From assembly GCA_944325685.1 (NCBI GenBank), contig CALVBC010000015.1, positions 1 through 61,160 on the forward strand: a stretch of 61,160 nucleotides of DNA. The letters run 5' to 3'. This document shows, one piece after another, positions 48,721 through 60,527 of this stretch. The stretch is from an uncultured Erysipelotrichaceae bacterium (GTDB lineage Bacteria; Bacillota_I; Bacilli_A; Erysipelotrichales; Erysipelotrichaceae). How positions within the stretch are numbered: position 1 is the first letter of the stretch; the number at the start of each line of letters is the position of its first letter. Under the pieces are notes generated by a model. It was not told the DNA's origin, did no database searches, and saw only the letters and a program-made list of their open reading frames with translations. The translations under genes were made by a program, and so were the position numbers.

Positions 48721-49761
48721 TTAAGCGCAAGCTTTTGTGATAGCTGTGATGAAATCACCAACTGCCATTGTACAGCTTGTAGCTAGATCTACTGGGCTGT
48801 TGTGATCGCCACCTAATTCCATACCTTCGATCTCAGCAGCTGTCTTACCAACGCAGTATTCTTCGAATGCTGCTGCTTGTTCGAACCATTCAGCACCGAT
48901 AGGAGAAGCACTTCTCATACCGTAGTCATCTTTACGATCTTGTTTTGAATCGATTGGATCAGCGCTAACGATAGTACCTGTAGCATCGAACTTAGCTGTG
49001 TTTTGAGCAACGTCGATATCTGTTAATAAGACTTTACCATCAGCATCTAATGCAACACCAGCATATGTGACATTGTATTGGACTGAACCATCACCATCAG
49101 CTGAAGCAGCTGTTGTTGAAACAGTTGTTTCTGAAGCTAAGCCATAGCTAGCAACTTCACCTTCAACAGCTGTTAAGTGTTCGTTCGCATCAGCGATCGC
49201 ATTTAAGAATTCTTGAACGCTCATCGTGCAGCTTGTTGTTAGATCAACAGGGCTGTTGTGATCGCCACCTAATTCCATATTTAATACTTCATCAACTGTT
49301 TTACCGATGCAGTATTCTTCGAAAGCGTCAGCTTGTTCATACCATTCAGCACCACCTTCGATGTTACCCATAGCAGCTGATGTCTCTTTCATAGCGTAGT
49401 CATCGCCACGTTCTCTCTTTGTGCCTTGTAGGCCTTCAGTTACGATAGCACCTGTGCCATCCCAAGTTGAAGTGTTTTGCGCAACGTCGACTTGAAGATC
49501 AACGATCTTACCTTCAGCGTCTACTGCTAATAAAGCATATGTTGTGTTAACTTCTACTGAACCTTCTTCATGATCAGCGTCAACGCTTGTAGGTGACATT
49601 GTTGTTGATTGACCAACACCCATTGAAACGGCGCCAGTAGTTGTACCAGTTGTTTCTGTCGATTCTGGTGTGTCTGTTCCTGTTGGTTCTGTGTTATTTG
49701 AACAAGCAACTAAGCTTAGAGCCATTAGACCACAGACTAATAAAGCTAATAATTTTTTCAT
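48721..49761 (-). CDS. Lipoprotein with two tandem copies of one domain
   Basis: About 346 residues. Signal peptide with lipobox LVAC, a Thr/Glu-rich linker, then two copies of a domain of about 140 residues (roughly 70-200 and 215-345). Matching pairs include VDVAQNTSTWDGTGAIV / IDVAQNTAKFDATGTIV, FEEYCIGKTVDEVLNMELGG / FEEYCVGKTAAEIEGMELGG and a shared HNSPVDL-TSCTM. The fold recalls FMN-binding-like lipoprotein domains of Clostridia, but no cofactor motif is certain. Start at 49761 follows AGGAGG by ten bases; the frame is open further upstream over the promoter. Confidence 0.85.
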   Translation of the reverse strand: MKKLLALLVCGLMALSLVACSNNTEPTGTDTPESTETTGTTTGAVSMGVGQSTTMSPTSVDADHEEGSVEVNTTYALLAVDAEGKIVDLQVDVAQNTSTWDGTGAIVTEGLQGTKRERGDDYAMKETSAAMGNIEGGAEWYEQADAFEEYCIGKTVDEVLNMELGGDHNSPVDLTTSCTMSVQEFLNAIADANEHLTAVEGEVASYGLASETTVSTTAASADGDGSVQYNVTYAGVALDADGKVLLTDIDVAQNTAKFDATGTIVSADPIDSKQDRKDDYGMRSASPIGAEWFEQAAAFEEYCVGKTAAEIEGMELGGDHNSPVDLATSCTMAVGDFITAITKACA

Positions 49762-49785
49762 TCTTTGCATTCCTCCTGCCCAAAT

Positions 49786-49814
49786 ATTATATGGGATGAA
49801 AAAAGCCATTGCAA
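49786..49814 (-). promoter_or_regulatory. Promoter of the duplicated-domain lipoprotein
   Basis: The minus strand has TTGCAA (49814-49809), a 17-base spacer and TATAAT (49791-49786), followed by a leader with AGGAGG. Confidence 0.7.
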
Positions 49815-49831
49815 GCATAAATTTCCCAAAA

Positions 49832-49846
49832 TGTGAAAACTTTCAC
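49832..49846. promoter_or_regulatory. Possible CRP/FNR- or Rex-type operator
   Basis: TGTGA-N6-TCAC, centred about 60 bases upstream of the predicted start site of the lipoprotein gene, the classical position for a class I CRP/FNR activator. Rex boxes have a similar shape. One half is imperfect. No such regulator lies in this window. Confidence 0.35.
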
Positions 49847-49902
49847 TCAAAGTTCACATGTTGAACTCATATTTAGCTTACGTGGCTTTAATATAAACTT
49901 AA

Positions 49903-51120
49903 CTAACGCTTAACTAAAAGGTCGAGATATGATGTCCCGTTCTCTGGCATATCGACGCCAAAGTAGTCGCAACAGGTCGCACCATTATCAGACATCGTCT
50001 TTCTGGTACCGACCCTAACACCATGAAGACCCTTCTTATAGATAAGTAGTGGCACATACTCTCTAGTATGTTTACTACTTCCACTATCTGGGTCATTGCC
50101 ATGGTCAGCTTGGACGATCAAGATATCATCTTCAGTGAGTAGTGGTAAGATCTTAGCTAAACCCTCATCGGCTTGCTCGAGGATCTTTTTATATTCGGTA
50201 CTATCTTGCGAGTGACCAGCTAAGTCAGTCTCTTGGATATTGGTACAGATAAAACCGGTATCGTGTTTTTTGATCGCATCGATCGTCAGTTGCATGCATT
50301 CAGGTGTTGGGACACATGAATAGCTCTCACCTAGATCATTGGCGACGATATCAGCGACTTTACCGATAAGGACACAGGGGATACCCGCTTTGGTCAAGAT
50401 CGTCGGTGCTTGGACATTCTTATTGACGCCATAGCCTAAGTGACGACATTGATATCCTTGTTCGTAGGATTTTGACTTAGCACTGGCGATACCGATGTAT
50501 TTGCCATCTTTGACTTCTTCGGCATTGTATAGATCTTGCATATTATTACCGGTACCACCAAATACGATGACCCTACCAACGGTGACCACTTCTCTTACAA
50601 GCTCTGCGATCTCATGTTCCTTCTCAAAGGAGATGTAATCAAGTGGTGCTGTGACGTTATAGCACATGCCAAGATCAGCTTCTAAGTTATCCGCGACCGT
50701 GACATAATCATCACATACGACATATCTAAGACCATCTCTTTCTTTATACTCGACCTTATGACCGTGCTTTTTAAGATGCTCATAGACGATATCGACCTTC
50801 TGTTGAAAAGGATGGACTTCAGGTTTCTTTGGTAATGTGCCCATGATCTCTTGGTGACCCATAAAGGTATCAGCCCCAAAGTGCATAAGGGCACTTCTGC
50901 CATAGTTTGCTTCATCATTAAACTTCATGAAGTCACTTTCTTTACCATAGGCATTCATAAGACCTAATTTCTCTAAGGTCGGTAACTTAAGATCAGGATG
51001 ATCTTTTAAGATGCTCCTTAAAGTATTGGTATTTTCATCACCTGGTCTTACGACCTTGGCATCTTCCATCGCGCCGATGCCAAAACCATCTAAGACGATG
51101 ATGATAAAACGCTTACTCAT
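49903..51120 (-). CDS. yhfW: YhfW: phosphopentomutase-like enzyme
   Basis: 405 residues of the alkaline-phosphatase superfamily, phosphopentomutase (DeoB) group. Metal and phosphate ligands: VLDGFGIGAM, the nucleophile region GDENTNTLRS, ETDLAGHSQD, QADHGNDP and SKHTREYVP. DeoB moves phosphate between C1 and C5 of ribose; the position after a YhfS-like gene and the lack of nucleoside genes point instead to E. coli YhfW, which is uncharacterised. It overlaps yhfS by eight bases and is the last gene of the cluster; no clear terminator follows. Confidence 0.85.
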   Translation of the reverse strand: MSKRFIIIVLDGFGIGAMEDAKVVRPGDENTNTLRSILKDHPDLKLPTLEKLGLMNAYGKESDFMKFNDEANYGRSALMHFGADTFMGHQEIMGTLPKKPEVHPFQQKVDIVYEHLKKHGHKVEYKERDGLRYVVCDDYVTVADNLEADLGMCYNVTAPLDYISFEKEHEIAELVREVVTVGRVIVFGGTGNNMQDLYNAEEVKDGKYIGIASAKSKSYEQGYQCRHLGYGVNKNVQAPTILTKAGIPCVLIGKVADIVANDLGESYSCVPTPECMQLTIDAIKKHDTGFICTNIQETDLAGHSQDSTEYKKILEQADEGLAKILPLLTEDDILIVQADHGNDPDSGSSKHTREYVPLLIYKKGLHGVRVGTRKTMSDNGATCCDYFGVDMPENGTSYLDLLVKR

Positions 51121-52210
51121 CTTTGGCCTCCTTGATACTTTCCTTTAAGATCCTGATGATCGTATCAGCCCCTGCGCGCATCGGGTTGATGCGGATCATG
51201 TAATCAGCACGTGATGGATCATCCTTTAAGAAAGTGCCTGATGCTCGATAGAATAGCGGGGTGATCTCATATTTGGACTCTGAACCAACTGGATTTGGTA
51301 AAGCCCCTTGTCTTTCAGCTATTTTCAAGACCTTTTTAGCGATCGGCTCTTTAAAGGTCACAAGTAATACCTTGGATTGCGCATTAGCGATAAAGGCATC
51401 ATCGATCTCCTTGATCTCACCTTTGTTTAGATATTCTAAGACCTTGTTGGCTTCGATATTGCTGATAGCTAATAAGACTGGCGCATATGTTAGACCTCTT
51501 AAGACCTCTAATGCTTCAAAGCCCTGGGTTTGACAACCACCTGAGTAGTGCATGGCTCTGATCTTATCGATATATTCCGCTTTTCCAGTCACAACACCGA
51601 TGCCTTCTGGTCCTTGTAATTTGAAAGTAGAAAAACATGATAGATCTGCTCCACACTGCGTTCCGATCTTTTTGACCTTCATGACGGCATAGTTATCATC
51701 AGTCACAACAGGTAGACCATAGCCTTTGATCACCTTGACCACTTCTTCTAGGTCATAGCTATCGCTTGGTGCCTGTCTTGTATATTGCACTAATGCCCCT
51801 TTGATATCCTTATTCTCTTCAAGGCATTTTCTGATACTATCAAGGTCATTGTAGTCACAAGCTACTGGCTCTAACCCTAACATCTCAAAGCTTGTCTTTG
51901 TTGTGCTATAGATCGGTGCTGTATGGACTAATACCTTGTCATTAGCCTTAAATATGCTGCTTAGGGCATATCTTATAGCACCTGTACCGCTGCCTCTTAC
52001 TAAGATCGCTTTTTCATCGTCGAAGAAATCGGCGATGACCTTTTCGACCTTGATCGTCGTAAGTGGCTCATTACCTGGCTGATGGACACCGAGATCACCG
52101 CGTGTCAAAAGCTCTGAGCCAGTGAAATGGCGCATTATCGTATCGACAAACTTGAATTGACATTGTGTTGCTTCTTCAAGCGTCATGCTTTCTAATGGAT
52201 ATACTTGCAT
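51113..52210 (-). CDS. yhfS: YhfS: PLP-dependent aminotransferase-like enzyme
   Basis: 365 residues, fold-type I PLP enzyme. The Schiff-base Lys lies in CFSTFKLQGPEG, the pyridine-N Asp in PVVTDDNYAV, and the small-domain segment in RINPMRAGADT. It resembles E. coli YhfS and distantly the cysteine-desulfurase / SelA-like enzymes. Elimination, transamination or cleavage of an amino acid is possible; the substrate is unknown. It lies ten bases after the amidase-like gene. Confidence 0.82.
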   Translation of the reverse strand: MQVYPLESMTLEEATQCQFKFVDTIMRHFTGSELLTRGDLGVHQPGNEPLTTIKVEKVIADFFDDEKAILVRGSGTGAIRYALSSIFKANDKVLVHTAPIYSTTKTSFEMLGLEPVACDYNDLDSIRKCLEENKDIKGALVQYTRQAPSDSYDLEEVVKVIKGYGLPVVTDDNYAVMKVKKIGTQCGADLSCFSTFKLQGPEGIGVVTGKAEYIDKIRAMHYSGGCQTQGFEALEVLRGLTYAPVLLAISNIEANKVLEYLNKGEIKEIDDAFIANAQSKVLLVTFKEPIAKKVLKIAERQGALPNPVGSESKYEITPLFYRASGTFLKDDPSRADYMIRINPMRAGADTIIRILKESIKEAKDE

Positions 52211-52219
52211 CGTTTCCTC

Positions 52220-53194
52220 CTATATCTTGTATCCTTCGATAAAGTAGTTATTGAGATCGAGGAAATAACGCTCGATCAGTTTATCGTGGACTTCATTGAT
52301 CTTTTTACCTAAGGCTAATAATTTAGCGATCTTGTCTTCCTTTGATTCTGACATCAAAAGATATGCCATCCCAAGACCCTCTTGTGGTAAAGACATCGCG
52401 GTTGCCCCAGCGATATTACAGACCCTGACATAGCCCTTATTAGCCCTTTCTTGATAGGCTTTGGTCCTTTCATCAAAGTGACCATATAATGAATCACCAA
52501 GACCATCGATATCGATCGGTCCCTCACTTATAAGTAAGACATCACATTCCTTTAGAGTCTTCTCTAAAAATGGTACTAAGGTATTCCTAGGTGTATGACT
52601 ATCCAATAATTCAATGACCTTAGAATCGATACCTTCATACTCTTTATCAGAATAGACGATACCACAGTCTTCACTTGGCTTGATATTGATCGCGACTTCG
52701 ATCGCCTTATATAAGACCTCTTTGTCACGGGCCATAAAGCCGATCGAGCTTGTTGCCATCATCCCATCGGTATTGGGCTTAGTCGGTGCTTTGATCATAT
52801 CCTTTTCGATCAGTTTTGATATAAAGCTCAAGATATTGACACTGATAGCTGGGGCTAAAACACTACCACCGCCATCATTACCGATACCAAGGTCATTGAT
52901 CCCACTGAAGACATTGACCGCTGTACCTGATGAAGAACCTGACATGATCCGTCCGCTGATCGGATTGATGACTTCTGTATCGATGGCTCTACCAGCTAGT
53001 TGTGACTTCTTATCGATCGTATGTAGACTAAAGCCTTCTTTCTCTAATTTATGCATCAAAGTATTAGGGATCGAAGCGACATTTTTGATCCCGACTAGTA
53101 ATTTACTAGGATCAGCGTCTAAAAGCTTGACGACGGTATGATATGGATCAAGCTCAGCGACGCGATGCCTTAGCTCATATTCTAGCATGTCCAA
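52220..53194 (-). CDS. Amidase-signature-like protein
   Basis: 324 residues, shorter than usual for the amidase family (about 450). It keeps the Ser-Ser-Lys triad pattern: Lys37 in VGIKNVAS, Ser87/Ser88 in SGSSSGTA and Ser111 in GNDGGGS. The 24-residue gap between the serines is the one found in FAAH and GatA. E. coli yhf clusters lack such a gene. It overlaps yhfX by 13 bases and so belongs to the pathway. Hydrolysis of an amide or ester is likely, though the divergent motif context leaves room for another use. Confidence 0.7.
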   Translation of the reverse strand: MDMLEYELRHRVAELDPYHTVVKLLDADPSKLLVGIKNVASIPNTLMHKLEKEGFSLHTIDKKSQLAGRAIDTEVINPISGRIMSGSSSGTAVNVFSGINDLGIGNDGGGSVLAPAISVNILSFISKLIEKDMIKAPTKPNTDGMMATSSIGFMARDKEVLYKAIEVAINIKPSEDCGIVYSDKEYEGIDSKVIELLDSHTPRNTLVPFLEKTLKECDVLLISEGPIDIDGLGDSLYGHFDERTKAYQERANKGYVRVCNIAGATAMSLPQEGLGMAYLLMSESKEDKIAKLLALGKKINEVHDKLIERYFLDLNNYFIEGYKI

Positions 53195-54351
53195 TCATCC
53201 TCGATCTTTTTACCAACGGCATCATATAACGCGATTTTAGGATCATTACGCTTTAATCCTTCGACACAAGCCACATAGCTTCTGGTGGTAAAGATCTGGG
53301 TCCTAAAGCACATGACGACGGTATCGGATACCTTGGCATTATGATCTAATTCAAAGTGATAATCGATCGAATCATCATCTGGTGCTTTGATGCCATATTC
53401 TTTTGCTTCTTTAAAGCTTTCACCAACTAAGGCATTAGCCATATGACCACGACGATAAGTACCACCACCATAGACATAAGCCTTGTCTTTAAAGTTATGC
53501 GATACTTCACTGACATATACATAACCGACCTTTTCCACCTCTTCATGGACCTTATGGAGTGGTGTCGTACCGGTAAGACCATGACCTGGTTCACCACTTG
53601 TACCACCTAACGCTTTGATCGTTGGGATCGAAGCTGCACAGGTAGCACTTGGGATATTGATCTCAAAATCTTTATAGCCAACACCTTTTAAGATATCGAT
53701 AGCCCTTTCTAATCCCTTTAGATTATCCGTCTTTTCGATCTTGTCATCTTGACTATCGTATAAAAGGGCTGGGAAAGCAGTCACACCACCGATCTTGACG
53801 TTGCTGAGGCTTTCGACTTCATTTATGACATCAACAAATTCATCGGTTGAAAAACCAGCGACTTGACCTGAATAAAGCTCAGCATCATCATCAGTGATCC
53901 TGATAAGGAGCTTTTGGATAATACCTAATTCCTTAGCTACTTCATTGACCTCTTTGATCTTGTCGATCGAATAGACCGTCATATAATCAGGCTTAGATGC
54001 GATGATCTTCTTTAAGGCATGTCTTGGCGTTTGGACTAAATGGCCGACATTAGCGATATGGATACCATTATCGATCATGACTAAAGCCTCTTTAAAATCA
54101 ACGACGACCGCCCCTTTAAAGCCGATATCCATGAGCATCTTAGCTACCTCAGGATTTCTTCCGATCTGCTTGAGCATGAAAAACAGTTCGATGCCATTAG
54201 CTTTTGCCACCTCTAACATCTTCGTCGCATTCTCTTTGATCGTATCAAGATCTAAGATATAAGTATCTGGTAAGATCAGACCTTCCTTGTGCGCTTTGAA
54301 GGCATATTCGATGAGTTTAGGATTATTCTCTATACATCTATCTAAAAACAT
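53182..54351 (-). CDS. yhfX: YhfX: PLP-dependent racemase-like enzyme
   Basis: 389 residues, fold-type III PLP enzyme of the alanine-racemase-like YhfX group. The Schiff-base Lys lies in FFMLKQIGRNPE near residue 58; a TIM-barrel follows with GGVTAFPALLYD and GTSGEPGHGLTGTTP, the phosphate-binding region. Racemisation or decarboxylation of an amino acid derivative is expected. Coupled with the amidase-like gene, 8 bases after php. Confidence 0.85.
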   Translation of the reverse strand: MFLDRCIENNPKLIEYAFKAHKEGLILPDTYILDLDTIKENATKMLEVAKANGIELFFMLKQIGRNPEVAKMLMDIGFKGAVVVDFKEALVMIDNGIHIANVGHLVQTPRHALKKIIASKPDYMTVYSIDKIKEVNEVAKELGIIQKLLIRITDDDAELYSGQVAGFSTDEFVDVINEVESLSNVKIGGVTAFPALLYDSQDDKIEKTDNLKGLERAIDILKGVGYKDFEINIPSATCAASIPTIKALGGTSGEPGHGLTGTTPLHKVHEEVEKVGYVYVSEVSHNFKDKAYVYGGGTYRRGHMANALVGESFKEAKEYGIKAPDDDSIDYHFELDHNAKVSDTVVMCFRTQIFTTRSYVACVEGLKRNDPKIALYDAVGKKIEDDWTC

Positions 54352-54359
54352 AGGCTATC

Positions 54360-55262
54360 TCACTTATCTAAGATCCGCGCTGGATTTAAGACCAAGAGCT
54401 TATTTAGATCTTCATCGCTGATGCCATATTCCTTAAGCAGTGGCACTGTTATCTTCATGACACTTAGATAACCCTTTTCACCAAAGCTCGTGAAATAGGT
54501 CCTTCTAGAGATGTCATTGGATAAGACGATATGATCACCATATCCTTTTTCGATGAGTTTCATGATATTATGCGCTCTGACTTCATCGCTCATATAGGCG
54601 CTTTTACCACAGGTATCAAAACCGATATTGACACCATTTTTCAAAAGTTCTAAGTGATATTCCGTATCATCGATGAGATCTTGATGACCGATGATGATCT
54701 TATCAGGATCAACACCTTTATCTAATAATGTCTTGACCGTTTCAAAAGCGGTCACTTTACCAGTATGCGTTGATACGGCAAAGCCCGTTTTAGAACTAGC
54801 GATACCAGCCGCTTCTAAGACCTTTTTCTCTTGGCCTACAAAGCCCTTTGGCGAAGAAGCGATCTCAGCGATGATGCCAGCTTTGATATCGGTATCATCG
54901 ATCCCGACAGTGAGTTCCTTGATAAAGGTCTCAGCGATCTCTTCAGCGCTTTTTTGTGTAAGTTCTTCAGGATGATACTCACTTAAGTAGTAACCCGTAG
55001 CTGCCACGATCTTTAAGCCAGTGATCTCAGAGATCCTCTTTAGTTTATGGATGTCCCTGTACATGTCGATCGTACTGACTTCAATAGCGCTATTCACTCC
55101 TAACGCCATCATCTTTTCGATCTCAGGGACGACCTCTTCAACGGTCTCGATCTTAGAGACACCATCGTGTCTTACATGGTCGAGATCGATATTGAAGTGT
55201 TCATGAGCCATCGTGATGCCTAGTTCTTCTTTTTTGATATTTCCTAATACAGTTTGGATCAT
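54360..55262 (-). CDS. php: Php: phosphotriesterase-family hydrolase (YhfV)
   Basis: 300 residues of the amidohydrolase superfamily, phosphotriesterase homology group. Metal ligands in order: MAHEHFNID, the bridging Glu in IIAEIASSPKG, VSTHTGK, IIGHQD and the Asp in VLSNDISRRTYF. In E. coli the corresponding gene php lies in the yhf operon. Many relatives are lactonases or phospho-sugar lactonases. The substrate here is unknown. Confidence 0.9.
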   Translation of the reverse strand: MIQTVLGNIKKEELGITMAHEHFNIDLDHVRHDGVSKIETVEEVVPEIEKMMALGVNSAIEVSTIDMYRDIHKLKRISEITGLKIVAATGYYLSEYHPEELTQKSAEEIAETFIKELTVGIDDTDIKAGIIAEIASSPKGFVGQEKKVLEAAGIASSKTGFAVSTHTGKVTAFETVKTLLDKGVDPDKIIIGHQDLIDDTEYHLELLKNGVNIGFDTCGKSAYMSDEVRAHNIMKLIEKGYGDHIVLSNDISRRTYFTSFGEKGYLSVMKITVPLLKEYGISDEDLNKLLVLNPARILDK

Positions 55263-55286
55263 TTTCTATTACCTCATATATACAAA

Positions 55287-55307
55287 GGGACATCATCAAG
55301 ATGTCCC
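55287..55307 (-). other. Stem-loop between yhfU and php
   Basis: A perfect 8-bp stem GGGACATC / GATGTCCC with a 5-base loop. It is followed on the minus strand by only TTTGTAT. It lies in the only gap over 30 bases within the operon downstream of yhfT, and may act as an attenuator or an RNA processing/stabilising structure. Confidence 0.5.
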
Positions 55308-55317
55308 TACGATTTCT

Positions 55318-55698
55318 TTATTCCGGTCTTCCTTCTGACTTGTCGATCAGGGCTCTGACCAAAGCAGGAACGACCTGTTCAGTATGGGATTTAACAAACC
55401 CAAAAGCCTTGTGATCGCCAGAATAGACCATGTGGCGGATCTGCTTTTCGTTTGGACAACTACCTTGTCTTGAGACAGTGAGGCATTTACCATAACCTAA
55501 GACCATGATCGCAGTAGCGATACTACCACCACCACCGGTCATACAACTACCTAAGTAGTAATCAGATTCACCATTTTTGACATTCTTAGCAGCGATCATA
55601 TCTGGATGTTCAAATGGTTCTGCTTCCCCTTTGAACTGCTTTTCAATGATCTGCTTGATCTGTAAGGACGTTAGTCCACAACATTCGATCTTCAACAT
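55318..55698 (-). CDS. yhfU: YhfU: DUF2620 protein
   Basis: 126 residues of the YhfU/DUF2620 family. A glycine-rich loop (GSCMTGGGGSIATAIMVLGY) and several cysteines stand out. There is no membrane segment. In E. coli it neighbours the membrane protein YhfT, as here (four-base gap), suggesting the pair forms one transport or regulatory unit. Function unknown. Confidence 0.85.
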   Translation of the reverse strand: MLKIECCGLTSLQIKQIIEKQFKGEAEPFEHPDMIAAKNVKNGESDYYLGSCMTGGGGSIATAIMVLGYGKCLTVSRQGSCPNEKQIRHMVYSGDHKAFGFVKSHTEQVVPALVRALIDKSEGRPE

Positions 55699-55702
55699 CT
55701 GC

Positions 55703-57019
55703 TTAACCTAATACGACAAAGCCGAATCCGACCATGATGTTGAAGAGGATACCGACGACAACAGCGGCGATAGGACCAACAGCTGTCTTTGGTAGTCTTT
55801 GACCTGTAACTTCGTTTAGTGCATAGAAGCCACCGACGATCATGAGACCTACAGCGCCCCAAGTAGCATTACCAGCTAAGAATGAACCAGCGACGATCGC
55901 TAATGATATACAGGATACCATCGCATCACGGATATAGTCACCGCACTTAGTGAGTTCTGGGAATTTCGATAGACCTTTACCTAGTAAGCCTAGTAATTGG
56001 ATCTCGATGAATTCAACGATGAAACCTAAGATCGGTGCTAACCACCATGTTGGAGCTAAAGCACCTACTAACATGACAGTCGTTAGACCAACAGCTTGAT
56101 AGACACCTGTAGCTAGTGATGTTGAAACGATAAGTGGGATGAAGGCGATGATGACACCGACCATAGCGAGTTCAAATGAACCGAGGTTACCACTTAATAC
56201 AGCTGGTGCTAAGATATATGGTTGATAAGCTTGGGCTAATACAGCGATACCTAGAGCATTCAAAGCACCTTGGATACATAGATATAACCAGTTTGATTTG
56301 ATGCGGTTAGCATTCTTAGTGAATAGGTTCTCTGTATCGGCATCTTGTTCGATAGCAGTTGTTTTCTTTGAGTTTTTGACAGCGTATACGATAAGGCAGA
56401 TCATACCAGCTAACATCGCGAATGTATATGGATATAAGCTTACAGAGATCGAACCGATCGTAACTGAGCCAACGATCGTGCAGAGCATGTAGATGATCGC
56501 TTGGATGATACCGGTGATGATACCATTCTTAGCACCAAACTGGCTTGCGATAGCGACAGCTGGGAACATCGAGAAGACTGGTAGTGCAGGTGATGAGATC
56601 TGGGTCAAGTCATTCAAGAAGTTGTAAGGTAGAGCTTGGAATGCTTGGTTGATAAGATCAGTACCAAATGCACAGATAGCACCGTAGATACCACCGATGA
56701 TGAGAGCGACCCACTTATTAGGTGACCAAGCACCTAAGCAGTCAGTTGCGATCAACGTTAAGTGAACGGCGATAAGACCAGAACCTAACCATTGGCTAAA
56801 ACCAGTTAGGACCCAACCGATACCCATACCAGTTACGACAACAGCGAATTCGGCACGAGTCATTCTGCCTTCCATGAATTCAGGGAAAACAGGACGAGCA
56901 CCATCGTTGAAGTTAGAAATGTTCATGTGCGACAGTAATGAAGCCCATGCACAGATCGCGATCAAGACGATAGCACGGAAAATGAGTGGAAACTCAAATG
57001 TAGTAACAATACCTTCCAT
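55703..57019 (-). CDS. yhfT: YhfT: multi-pass membrane protein, likely transporter
   Basis: 438 residues with about 11-12 hydrophobic helices, one short cytoplasmic loop after about 215 residues (KNSKKTTAIEQDADTENLF), and no ATP-binding or PTS motif. It matches E. coli YhfT in context and size. Uptake of the pathway substrate is inferred. A proper AGGAGG ribosome site precedes it. Confidence 0.85.
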   Translation of the reverse strand: MEGIVTTFEFPLIFRAIVLIAICAWASLLSHMNISNFNDGARPVFPEFMEGRMTRAEFAVVVTGMGIGWVLTGFSQWLGSGLIAVHLTLIATDCLGAWSPNKWVALIIGGIYGAICAFGTDLINQAFQALPYNFLNDLTQISSPALPVFSMFPAVAIASQFGAKNGIITGIIQAIIYMLCTIVGSVTIGSISVSLYPYTFAMLAGMICLIVYAVKNSKKTTAIEQDADTENLFTKNANRIKSNWLYLCIQGALNALGIAVLAQAYQPYILAPAVLSGNLGSFELAMVGVIIAFIPLIVSTSLATGVYQAVGLTTVMLVGALAPTWWLAPILGFIVEFIEIQLLGLLGKGLSKFPELTKCGDYIRDAMVSCISLAIVAGSFLAGNATWGAVGLMIVGGFYALNEVTGQRLPKTAVGPIAAVVVGILFNIMVGFGFVVLG

Positions 57020-57049
57020 AAATTTTCTATCCTCCTAATTTTGAAAGTA

Positions 57050-57415
57050 TCATTTATCGCGGCAAGCCGCGAGCACGTTATTGATATGCATCAAAGCGTA
57101 GTCTTTTTCGACATCATTGAGTCGATCATCACTTAATGCAATGACATCTTTTAAGATATCTAAAGACTCTTCATATGTACCAAGACCTTTGATCTCCTCT
57201 TGGATCATCTCTGGTACTGGATCGATATCTTCATGTGTATGACACCTAGAAAAAGCTGCACACAAATGAGCGATGAAAGTCCCAGCGTTTTCTTCGCTTA
57301 GTTCGATACCGTGTTTTTGATTAAACATCGCGATGATCTTTTCGACATCAGCACGGTCTTTCTTATCGATCATGCCACCTTCTTCATAAAGATCCAAGCG
57401 TTCTTTAAAGTCCAT
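57050..57415 (-). CDS. yhfY: YhfY: PRD-like domain protein
   Basis: 121 residues, helical, resembling a single PTS regulation domain (PRD) as in E. coli YhfY. Candidate histidines lie in FIAHLCAAFSRCHTHED and ALMHINN. It contains no DNA-binding part. It may sense PTS phosphorylation or a metabolite and tune the pathway; that is inference. It overlaps the zinc-ribbon gene by 11 bases. Confidence 0.8.
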   Translation of the reverse strand: MDFKERLDLYEEGGMIDKKDRADVEKIIAMFNQKHGIELSEENAGTFIAHLCAAFSRCHTHEDIDPVPEMIQEEIKGLGTYEESLDILKDVIALSDDRLNDVEKDYALMHINNVLAACRDK

Positions 57416-57794
57416 GTTTTTTCTTCTCCTTAGCTTTACGGGCTTTGATCGCTTCCTTCACATCTGGCTTTTCAAACGGCACATAGCGCAGATGGAAGAT
57501 CTTGTCAGTGATGATCAAGCATAAGCGATCGTATACGTTCATAAGAGCCAACATGATCGATAGTACGATGATCAAGGCGACGTAGCTTGACACCGTGCCC
57601 AAGTTCATCATCCCGATCATAAGTATGCTGACGACGATAGCGACAAAAAGCGTCCGCGTATACTTGAGCATCCTTTGGCTGCGACCGTCGATCATGAGCT
57701 CCATATTACAATGGGGACACTTGATGACCTTCTTAACTTCTTTAAAGGTGTGTGATATATGATTGCCACACCTTGGGCATGTAATATCTCTCAT
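57405..57794 (-). CDS. Zinc-ribbon membrane protein
   Basis: 129 residues: an N-terminal zinc ribbon (CPRCGNHISHTFKE then IKCPHCNMEL, two CxxC pairs), two membrane helices at about 47-85, and a basic cytoplasmic tail rich in Lys. First gene of the yhf operon behind its promoter; E. coli has no clear counterpart. A role in controlling the transporter or regulator is possible but unsupported. Confidence 0.75.
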   Translation of the reverse strand: MRDITCPRCGNHISHTFKEVKKVIKCPHCNMELMIDGRSQRMLKYTRTLFVAIVVSILMIGMMNLGTVSSYVALIIVLSIMLALMNVYDRLCLIITDKIFHLRYVPFEKPDVKEAIKARKAKEKKKHGL

Positions 57795-57811
57795 ATCTCT
57801 CCTATGGCTTC

Positions 57812-57840
57812 ATTATAAATAGTTCACATACTAAATTCAA
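57812..57840 (-). promoter_or_regulatory. Promoter of the yhf operon
   Basis: The minus strand has TTGAAT (57840-57835), a 17-base spacer and TATAAT (57817-57812), followed by an AGGAGAG ribosome site before the ATG at 57794. The strong match suggests it is switched off by repression rather than switched on. Confidence 0.7.
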
Positions 57841-57846
57841 TACAAA

Positions 57847-57862
57847 ATACAAAATTTTGTAT
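57847..57862. promoter_or_regulatory. 16-bp palindromic operator of the yhf operon
   Basis: ATACAAAATTTTGTAT is a perfect palindrome seven bases upstream of the -35. A further AATACAAAA half-site repeat adjoins it on the promoter side. It is the obvious candidate site for the YhfZ regulator encoded just upstream. Confidence 0.6.
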
Positions 57863-57886
57863 ATTGATATTTATGACCATTATAAA

Positions 57887-57922
57887 AGGCCCTTTTATAT
57901 AAGTATTATGTTAAAAGAGCCT
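57887..57922 (-). terminator. Terminator after yhfZ
   Basis: The minus strand AGGCTCTTTTA / TAAAAGGGCCT stem (one G-U pair, 14-base loop) is followed by TTTATAAT. It insulates the regulator gene from the yhf operon promoter. Confidence 0.75.
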
Positions 57923-57934
57923 ATAAATAAATTA

Positions 57935-58858
57935 CTAATAACTTGGGGTTATCTTACCCTCTAATACGAGCCTTTGGATATTCAAAACGGTCGTGACATC
58001 TAATAGTTCTCTGATCAGATAATCGATGATCTCATTGTCACTTCTAGTTATGACAGCCGCGATACTACCATCATCGATCCCATCGATCGGGACCATCTTG
58101 ATACGGACCCTTTTATCTAATGCTTCATCTTCATTCATGACCGATGCATCGATATCACCATAGATGATCTTATTTAGGATCTGAGAATATTCTAACTGGA
58201 CTAATTCGACATCTTTATCCTTACAGACATAGTTTACCAAAGCGCTCTGGTCGACTGATGTAAGGTCGATACCGACCTTCATCCCATCTTTGATATCATC
58301 TTCACTATCATCATGGAACATCATCACATGGCGATTGAGATATGACCTTTCACCAAAGTCCATGACGATCTTGATGATATCACCATATTCTTCGATAAAT
58401 CTTTTAGCTGATAGTAAAGAGACGATCGCAAAGTCATAGCGCTTTTGGATGACCATACTGATCCGATTCTTACTACCACGCATGTAGGCAAGGTTTACTG
58501 GTAATTCATAGTTATTTTCCATAGTGGCAATGATACCAGATGCCAATCCTTCATAGCGCTTGGAATAAGGCAAAGGCATAGCGCCTAATAGTGAATTGAT
58601 ACCGGCATACTTGAGCAAGGTCTTTACATTCTTCTTGATGAGATATGAGCCTAAATGGCCTTTAGACTCAAGCCTGATCGCTCCTGATTCGACTAAGGTC
58701 TTGATGCCATTTTGCACAGTACCCCTAGCTAAAGATAGCGCATCGGTAAATTCTGAGACCGTCGGGATCTTTTCCCCGAGCGGATAGCGAAGTAATTCCC
58801 GCGCTAATTTAGTGGTCGCGATCGCATTTTTGCCAAGTAGGTTGATGTATTGTTCCAT
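57935..58858 (-). CDS. yhfZ: YhfZ: GntR-like transcription regulator
   Basis: 307 residues. The N-terminal winged helix-turn-helix (about 10-75) reads KIPTVSEFTDALSLARGTVQ and NGIKTLVESGAIRLESKGHL, similar to GntR-type motifs. The C-terminal 210 residues look like a periplasmic-binding-type ligand domain (SKRYEGLASGI, DFAIVSLLSAKR, GDIDASVMNEDE), as in E. coli YhfZ. It should bind the palindrome at 57847-57862 and respond to a pathway metabolite. It starts six bases after an extended -10 box. Confidence 0.85.
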   Translation of the reverse strand: MEQYINLLGKNAIATTKLARELLRYPLGEKIPTVSEFTDALSLARGTVQNGIKTLVESGAIRLESKGHLGSYLIKKNVKTLLKYAGINSLLGAMPLPYSKRYEGLASGIIATMENNYELPVNLAYMRGSKNRISMVIQKRYDFAIVSLLSAKRFIEEYGDIIKIVMDFGERSYLNRHVMMFHDDSEDDIKDGMKVGIDLTSVDQSALVNYVCKDKDVELVQLEYSQILNKIIYGDIDASVMNEDEALDKRVRIKMVPIDGIDDGSIAAVITRSDNEIIDYLIRELLDVTTVLNIQRLVLEGKITPSY

Positions 58859-58864
58859 GTATAG

Positions 58865-58873
58865 ATTATATCA
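58865..58873 (-). promoter_or_regulatory. Extended -10 promoter of yhfZ (leaderless)
   Basis: The minus strand reads TGA-TATAAT, then six bases and the ATG at 58858. No ribosome site. Confidence 0.6.
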
Positions 58874-58893
58874 TCAAAATGACATAGCTTGAT

Positions 58894-59511
58894 TTATTTC
58901 TTGATATCTTTAGCCCAATCATCACGGATCTTTTTATTGTTCCTGACATCACTGATAACTTCATTTATGACCATATAATTACATCTTGTACCATGACTAT
59001 CACTGTGGTAGTTACTAGCTCTATCCCTACTGATACCGATATCACTAGCTACCTTTATCGCATCGATATTAGCTCCTAAAAAGATGAATTCCCATCCTAA
59101 TTCCTTTTTCGCTTCGATTAAACTCTTGATAGCTTTTAAACTATATTCATGACTACTGTTTTCTTTTCCATCAGTCGTGATCACAAACAAGGTCTTATCA
59201 GGGACATCTTTCATCTCTTTGTGGACATCACTTATATGACATATGGCATCACCGATCGCATCAAACAAGGCTGTACAACCACCTACTACATAATCATCTC
59301 TTGTCATATACGTGATATCCTTGATATCGACACGATCATGGATGACTTTAGAAAAGTCATTGAATAATACCGTCGATATATAAGCTTTGCCTTTTAGTTT
59401 GCGTTGTTTATCAACTAAGGAATTAAAGCCACCGATCGTATCCTCTTCTAAGCCCTGCATCGAGCCACTACGGTCTAATACAAATATGATCTCACTGAAA
59501 TTTTCCTTCAT
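58894..59511 (-). CDS. VWA-domain protein
   Basis: 205 residues, essentially one von Willebrand factor A domain. The MIDAS metal site is intact: FVLDRSGSMQG (DxSxS), Thr in GGCTALFDAIGDA and Asp in VITTDGKENSS. It resembles the YegL/TerY group of cytoplasmic VWA proteins; no signal peptide or membrane segment is seen. A GGAGG ribosome site is present. It lies next to a macro-domain gene, possibly in one transcript. Confidence 0.85.
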   Translation of the reverse strand: MKENFSEIIFVLDRSGSMQGLEEDTIGGFNSLVDKQRKLKGKAYISTVLFNDFSKVIHDRVDIKDITYMTRDDYVVGGCTALFDAIGDAICHISDVHKEMKDVPDKTLFVITTDGKENSSHEYSLKAIKSLIEAKKELGWEFIFLGANIDAIKVASDIGISRDRASNYHSDSHGTRCNYMVINEVISDVRNNKKIRDDWAKDIKK

Positions 59512-59559
59512 ATTATCATCCTCCTTGATGATAGTATAGGGATATTAGTGATGAAGATG

Positions 59560-59576
59560 GTCGCTTAAAAAGCGAC
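59560..59576. repeat. 7-bp inverted repeat between VWA and macro genes
   Basis: GTCGCTT / AAGCGAC with a 3-base loop and no T run. It could be a weak transcript hairpin in the gap between the macro-domain and VWA genes. Confidence 0.4.
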
Positions 59577-59582
59577 ATTTAT

Positions 59583-60527
59583 CTAAACACCTAAGAGCTT
59601 TTGATCAAAAGTGAATAGAGCTTCATTGATCTTATATATGTCATAGATCTGATTCTTGATAAAGTATTCGATGATCAGATCAAACTTGTAAGAATGAGAC
59701 AAAGCAAAACCAGCCTTTCTTAATATCTCCTTTGTCTCATCTAGCGATAATCTTAAAGCGATAGCTAAAGCTAAGACCGTTGACTTTGATGGATGATAAT
59801 CCTTACTAGAGCGGATCTTAGAGAATAACTTACGGTCGATATTAGCCCTTTTATAACACTCACTATCACTGATACCTGCCTCATCGATCTTGCGGAATAA
59901 CATATCCGCAAAACTCTCATCGATATTAGCCAGTACATCATCTAGTGACGCTTCTTTTAAAAGGAATGATGTATATCTTAGTCTTTTGTCGATATGTTTA
60001 TTGACATAGTTATCATCGATATAGGCTTTGATATCAGAATATAGCTTAGTACTTATGACATATGTATCATGATCATATATGACAAGATATACTATTAGAT
60101 CATGATCTTTTAAAAAGCCACTGATCTCATCTATCGCTATCTTAAAAGCCTCAGCTTTAGGATAGCCATAGATACCTGATGAGATAAGGGGAAAAGCGAT
60201 CGAATCTAATTCCTTTTCTAAAGCGATCTCTAATGCCCTTCTATAGCAAGACCTTAATAGTCTTTCTTCATCATGATGACCATCGATATATTTAGGACCT
60301 ACCGTATGGATGATGTAATGGCAAGGAAGATCATAAGCACCAGTTATCTTCACATCACCGGTAGCACAACCACCAAGTGTCTTACACTCCAATAGCAAGT
60401 TAGGACCAGCGGCTTGATGGATCATCCCATCAACGCCACCACCGCCTAAAAGGCTATTATTAGCCGCATTGACGATCGCATCGACTTTCATCTTACATAT
60501 ATCATTTCTAACGATAAATAATGGCAT
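59583..60527 (-). CDS. Macro-domain protein with C-terminal helical domain
   Basis: 314 residues. The N-terminal macro domain (about 1-165) has VDAIVNAANNSLLGGGGVDG, the ADP-ribose-binding ISSGIYGYPK loop and KYIDGHH, typical of the YmdB/MacroD-like O-acetyl-ADP-ribose or ADP-ribosyl hydrolases. The C-terminal part (about 205-310) reads SDSECYKRANIDRKLFSKI and TVLALAIALRLSLDETKEIL, resembling an XRE-type helix-turn-helix domain found fused to several effector domains in Bacillota. The fusion suggests ADP-ribose-linked signalling or regulation. Confidence 0.87.
   Translation of the reverse strand: MPLFIVRNDICKMKVDAIVNAANNSLLGGGGVDGMIHQAAGPNLLLECKTLGGCATGDVKITGAYDLPCHYIIHTVGPKYIDGHHDEERLLRSCYRRALEIALEKELDSIAFPLISSGIYGYPKAEAFKIAIDEISGFLKDHDLIVYLVIYDHDTYVISTKLYSDIKAYIDDNYVNKHIDKRLRYTSFLLKEASLDDVLANIDESFADMLFRKIDEAGISDSECYKRANIDRKLFSKIRSSKDYHPSKSTVLALAIALRLSLDETKEILRKAGFALSHSYKFDLIIEYFIKNQIYDIYKINEALFTFDQKLLGV

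Follow-up and report, generated by a model that had tools for sequence, protein, structure and literature searches.

The yhf cluster of an uncultured Erysipelotrichaceae bacterium contains a compact predicted amidase whose association with the yhf genes is near-exclusive and ancient. We put at roughly 55% the probability that this protein is a cytosolic hydrolase of ~320 residues with the amidase-signature (AS) fold and a Ser-cisSer-Lys triad, which releases the substrate of the yhf pathway from a small polar amide or ester ahead of the PLP enzymes. We demonstrate homology to AS enzymes at the level of the fold, conservation of the triad and oxyanion loop, a position within the operon and an association with yhf genes across genomes. 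The structures of YhfX, YhfS and Php from E. coli have been solved, and we found no substrate in the open literature; a search there on yhfX, yhfS, yhfT, yhfZ and yhf function returned mentions by name and no functional account, and the 'yhf' genes of Bacillus found there were dismissed as name clashes.

In the window (the whole 61,160-nucleotide stretch of DNA that was analysed), the genes from position 57794 down to 49903 are all on one strand and either overlap or are separated by gaps of < 60 bp. The co-located genes are yhfZ (57935..58858 (-); NF041241, 358.6 bits), encoding a GntR-like regulator; yhfY (57050..57415 (-)), a stand-alone PRD-like domain (PF00874, 22.8 bits, cut-off 23); yhfT (55703..57019 (-); PF10797, 354 bits), a membrane protein and probable transporter; yhfU (55318..55698 (-); DUF2620, PF10941, 110 bits); php (yhfV; 54360..55262 (-)), a phosphotriesterase-homology protein (PF02126, 230.7 bits; 1bf6, 4lef); yhfX (53182..54351 (-)), a PLP enzyme with an alanine-racemase fold (PF21279, 125.5 bits; E. 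coli structure 4kbx, E 1.2e-92); yhfS (51113..52210 (-)), a fold-type-I PLP enzyme (PF22475, 146 bits; E. coli structure 4j8l, E 5.6e-119); and yhfW (49903..51120 (-)), a phosphopentomutase-like metalloenzyme (NF009049, 573.5 bits). A small protein with a zinc ribbon and a membrane part (57405..57794 (-)) is encoded between yhfZ and yhfY, as in most clusters of layout A (see below). The naming of these neighbours in the earlier note was correct, with matches to YhfX_C, YhfS_C, PRK12383 phosphopentomutase (YhfW), PTE, DUF2620, YhfT and YhfZ. The E. coli yhf (php) cluster shares homologues of yhfZ, Y, X, W, php, U, T and S but has another gene order (Z-Y-X-W-php-U-T-S) and, as had been claimed, lacks the amidase. 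Downstream of yhfW, positions 48721-49818 hold an open reading frame for a probable secreted lipoprotein-like protein with two internal repeats. Rfam gave no match in 49000-59600, and promoter and terminator patterns were no more frequent than in shuffled sequence.

The amidase-like open reading frame is genuine and lies between yhfX and yhfS. A length of 324 residues had been proposed, which holds for a TTG start at 53194 (52220-53194 (-)), whereas the likelier ATG at 53188 yields 322 residues (52220..53188 (-)). We prefer the ATG because complete layout A homologues start at the equivalent place, give or take 1–2 residues (M-K-x-x-Y or M-N-Y), and because a GAGG lies 9–10 nt 5′ of it vs only ~ 4 nt 5′ of the TTG. 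With this start, the overlap with yhfX shrinks from the 13 bases first given to 7 bp. The residues singled out as Lys37, Ser87 and Ser111 are all present and become K35, S85 (cis-Ser) and S109 (nucleophile), predicted to be catalytic. The serines are exactly 24 residues apart, the same spacing as in the genome's own GatA (S130/S154) and in malonamidase (S131/S155, positions taken from mutant names in PDB entry titles).

The only Pfam match of the protein was Amidase (PF01425; residues 76-120, 26.4 bits, E 4.6e-6, cut-off 27), which corresponds to the motif stretch GSSSG...DGGGSVLAPA (52832..52969 (-)). Judged from the sequence, membership is borderline by the curated cut-off and clear by E-value; five of six distant relatives scored 28.4–34.5 bits, and the Cetobacterium protein 21.3. 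A series of NCBIfam amidase models also matched (up to 32.6 bits, best E 3.8e-8), all far under their equivalog cut-offs, and a PDB sequence search gave weak matches to GatA, malonamidase and FAAH. A chance motif was rejected on the Pfam and NCBIfam E-values. In an alignment of 17 members with identities down to 34%, K35, S85, S109 and the DGGGS loop with its oxyanion-loop glycines were invariant; the full set of invariant residues around them comprises G33, K35, G84–G88, D105–L111, P113 and A114.

The likeness to AS enzymes extends beyond the motif. A global profile alignment to GatA (E 4e-9) paired K35, S85 and S109 with GatA K55, S130 and S154, and comparison with a profile of ten GatA sequences showed that the C-terminal half of the compact amidase matches as well, with a large gap between the signature and that half. 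A MAFFT alignment with the genome's own GatA had put the lysine in the wrong place. The Lys-to-cis-Ser distance is 50 residues vs 75 in the genome's GatA, so that this segment is 25 residues shorter while the core motif and the lysine are kept; a complete AS signature region has been defined as ~ 160 residues (PMC11741061). The fold was checked on an AlphaFold2 model built from 14 close homologues, which is modest (pLDDT 63.7, pTM 0.72, with catalytic segments at pLDDT < 50). Foldseek matched it to AS enzymes at probability 1.00, and among the structural matches listed by VIA-align 2 all 50 of 50 were AS enzymes (Z 11.0–13.1, rmsd about 4–7 Å over 216–256 aligned residues, with a model core at pLDDT < 50). 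The predicted fold is that of the AS family and, because the fold matches and the independent GatA profile alignment, including the C-terminal half, agree, the protein appears to be a trimmed AS fold and no isolated motif.

GatA itself ranked near the top of the structural matches (2df4, Z 13.0), which would suit an ammonia-supplying or amidotransferase-type enzyme, a GatA-like glutaminase serving an amination step. We regard such a role as very unlikely, since the GatA equivalog model scored only 27.8 bits against a cut-off of 481.1, much of the region from the GatA signature to the C-terminus is missing, neither gatB nor gatC adjoins the gene, and a full GatA is encoded separately in the same genome (G000:C7). 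On the same score and the presence of this full GatA, a GatA paralogue was rejected. That GatA (L002:1432-2826 (-)) and those in L110–L123 carry the loop (S/T)DTGDS(I/V)R(K/R)PA; the Asp directly before the nucleophilic Ser was invariant in ten aligned GatA sequences and is Gly in the S. aureus and yeast proteins.

With the AS family (PF01425; malonamidase E2, GatA, FAAH, peptide amidase, ClbL) the compact amidase shares the Ser-cisSer-Lys triad, the 24-residue Ser-Ser spacing, the Gly/Ser-rich motif and the predicted fold. It differs in size (322 residues vs about 400–600), in reading SVLAP vs SIRxP, in scoring near the Pfam cut-off and in invariant residues of its own. Two residues past the nucleophile, where GatA and FAAH have Arg, all 17 members have Leu, and H56, T57, D59, R67, D70, E222, G223, P224, D226, D232, Q246 and K251 are invariant among them. 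By their compactness, the lost Arg and these residues, the members form a distinct AS subfamily. A non-catalytic, structural or regulatory relative of AS enzymes could also be very compact, lack the Arg after the nucleophile and score under the Pfam cut-off; a pseudoenzyme would have no need, however, to keep K35, S85, S109 and the DGGGS loop invariant in 17 diverse members, and we consider that explanation improbable.

The association with yhf genes was examined across genomes. YhfX_C was found in 43 and the amidase family (> 50 bits) in 34 of 315 Erysipelotrichales genomes, and yhfX was present in 31 of the 34 amidase carriers (Fisher p 1e-29, on phylogenetically non-independent counts). The three carriers without yhfX are contig fragments, two of which still adjoin yhfS and yhfW. 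In an even phylum draw of 392 genomes, all 10 full-length amidases fell within the 12 yhfX genomes, counts that are likewise phylogenetically non-independent. The amidase gene (AMID) occurs in layouts A (Z-ZnR-Y-T-U-php-X-AMID-S-W), B (U-T-php-AMID-S-X-W), C (Y-U-T-AMID-php-S-X-W) and, in another family, D (U-T-AMID-Z-Y-php-S-X-W), and in all four gene orders it is inside the cluster. Searched for in other Gram-positive yhf clusters, it recurs there and in one fusobacterial cluster, the complete one of Cetobacterium somerae (Fusobacteriota; Z-Y-U-T-AMID-php-S-X-W), where it is annotated as 'amidase family protein'. The differing gene orders and the second phylum provide the independent evidence for the association. 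Over 22 clusters, amidase distances correlated with those of yhfS, yhfX, yhfW and php at r 0.77–0.85, inside the range of the core yhf genes among themselves (r 0.50–0.91). A recent insertion was rejected on the four gene orders, the coevolution with neighbours and the Cetobacterium cluster. The description of the gene as inserted in the yhf cluster is misleading; the gene is an old, co-inherited and optional component.

The amidase is dispensable: E. coli lacks it, and so do six Erysipelotrichales clusters among those inspected, namely G053, G057, G210, G211, G281 and G292. Within one genus, G092 has yhfT-AMID-php, whereas yhfT and php are directly adjacent and ~ 15 bp apart in G057, and the order is otherwise identical. 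No obvious replacement was found in five of the six larger clusters without the amidase; in the sixth (G281), a peptidase M28-family gene lies 46 bp after yhfW. A tyrosine-phosphatase-like protein (PF13350) is encoded in or beside two amidase-less yhf clusters (L129:13448-14236, L135:2907-3650). Three genomes (G283, G284 and G288, a count taken apart from G285 of the same genus) have yhfX with no surrounding cluster, and two (G176, G232) have it on truncated contigs. Outside a cluster, yhfX lies beside yhfZ in L131, and no other yhf gene was found near it in the relatives L138 and L139. Dispensability in some clusters is frequent for repair enzymes, and the amidase is always beside php, yhfS, yhfX, yhfT or yhfZ; it might thus be an in-pathway repair enzyme, which would open a lactam or hydrolyse an amide that the PLP enzymes form as a side product. 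It coevolves strongly with its neighbours and is present in nearly all clusters of layouts A–C, which suits a step of the main flux at least equally, and we consider repair unlikely, if less so than the roles weighed above.

For the hydrolase that would release the yhf substrate, the proposed course is as follows. The substrate would be taken up, probably via YhfT; Ser109, activated through Ser85 and Lys35, would attack the carbonyl of its amide (or ester); and the acyl-enzyme would be hydrolysed, passing the freed amine or acid to the PLP enzymes YhfX and YhfS. We infer that the amide or ester so cleaved is small and polar; the many invariant polar residues (H56, D59, R67, D70, E222, D226, D232 and K251) suggest as much. 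Since the clusters of E. coli and of some Firmicutes do without it, the amidase would stand outside the core chemistry, as an optional step at the front end that broadens the range of substrate forms that can be used. Against this stand the Leu in place of the Arg after the nucleophile, the low-confidence core of the AlphaFold2 model (pLDDT < 50) and the six larger clusters without the gene, and Php, of the amidohydrolase-type superfamily, could itself carry out such a hydrolysis. That the amidase belongs to the pathway is far better supported than where in the pathway it acts. The earlier note's reading is partly supported: both outcomes that would have spoken against it, a fold other than that of amidases and absence from other Gram-positive yhf clusters, were checked and did not occur, and its suggestion that the substrate may be amide- or ester-linked, or be processed one step earlier, fits the evidence. 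That the substrate might derive from a sugar acid or an amino sugar is no more than a guess, based on YhfW being phosphopentomutase-like, Php being phosphotriesterase-like and layout D having a glucosamine-6-phosphate deaminase gene. This deaminase-family gene comes right after yhfW (L140:5793-6515, L141:10391-11113) and might hint at the substrate class. Several clusters (six loci) carry two further genes in tandem after yhfW: another, diverged php (~ 31% identity) and another yhfS (~ 45%).

The pairing of a YhfX-family PLP enzyme with a probable amide hydrolase is also seen in alphaproteobacteria, where a conserved unit on plasmids (four loci) comprises a ROK regulator, an M20 hydrolase, an ABC transporter and a YhfX-family PLP enzyme. 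That hydrolase, in contrast, belongs to the unrelated, metal-dependent M20 family, and yhfS, yhfW, php and yhfT are not annotated in those stretches. The cases in which YhfX-type enzymes are paired with unrelated probable amide hydrolases (M20, M28) are few and suggestive.

A cluster-specific hydrolase with a predicted covalent mechanism provides a handle on the yhf substrate, through acyl-enzyme trapping and the screening of amide libraries, and the natural pair of clusters with and without the amidase in one genus allows a comparison. The compact amidase is further an example of how far an AS enzyme can be reduced in size, which bears on the essential parts of the fold. More tentatively, and with odds that we place somewhat below even, the yhf-specific minimal AS subfamily may open an undescribed pathway, in which gut Firmicutes and fusobacteria would use a small polar amide-linked compound and E. 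coli only its unblocked form.
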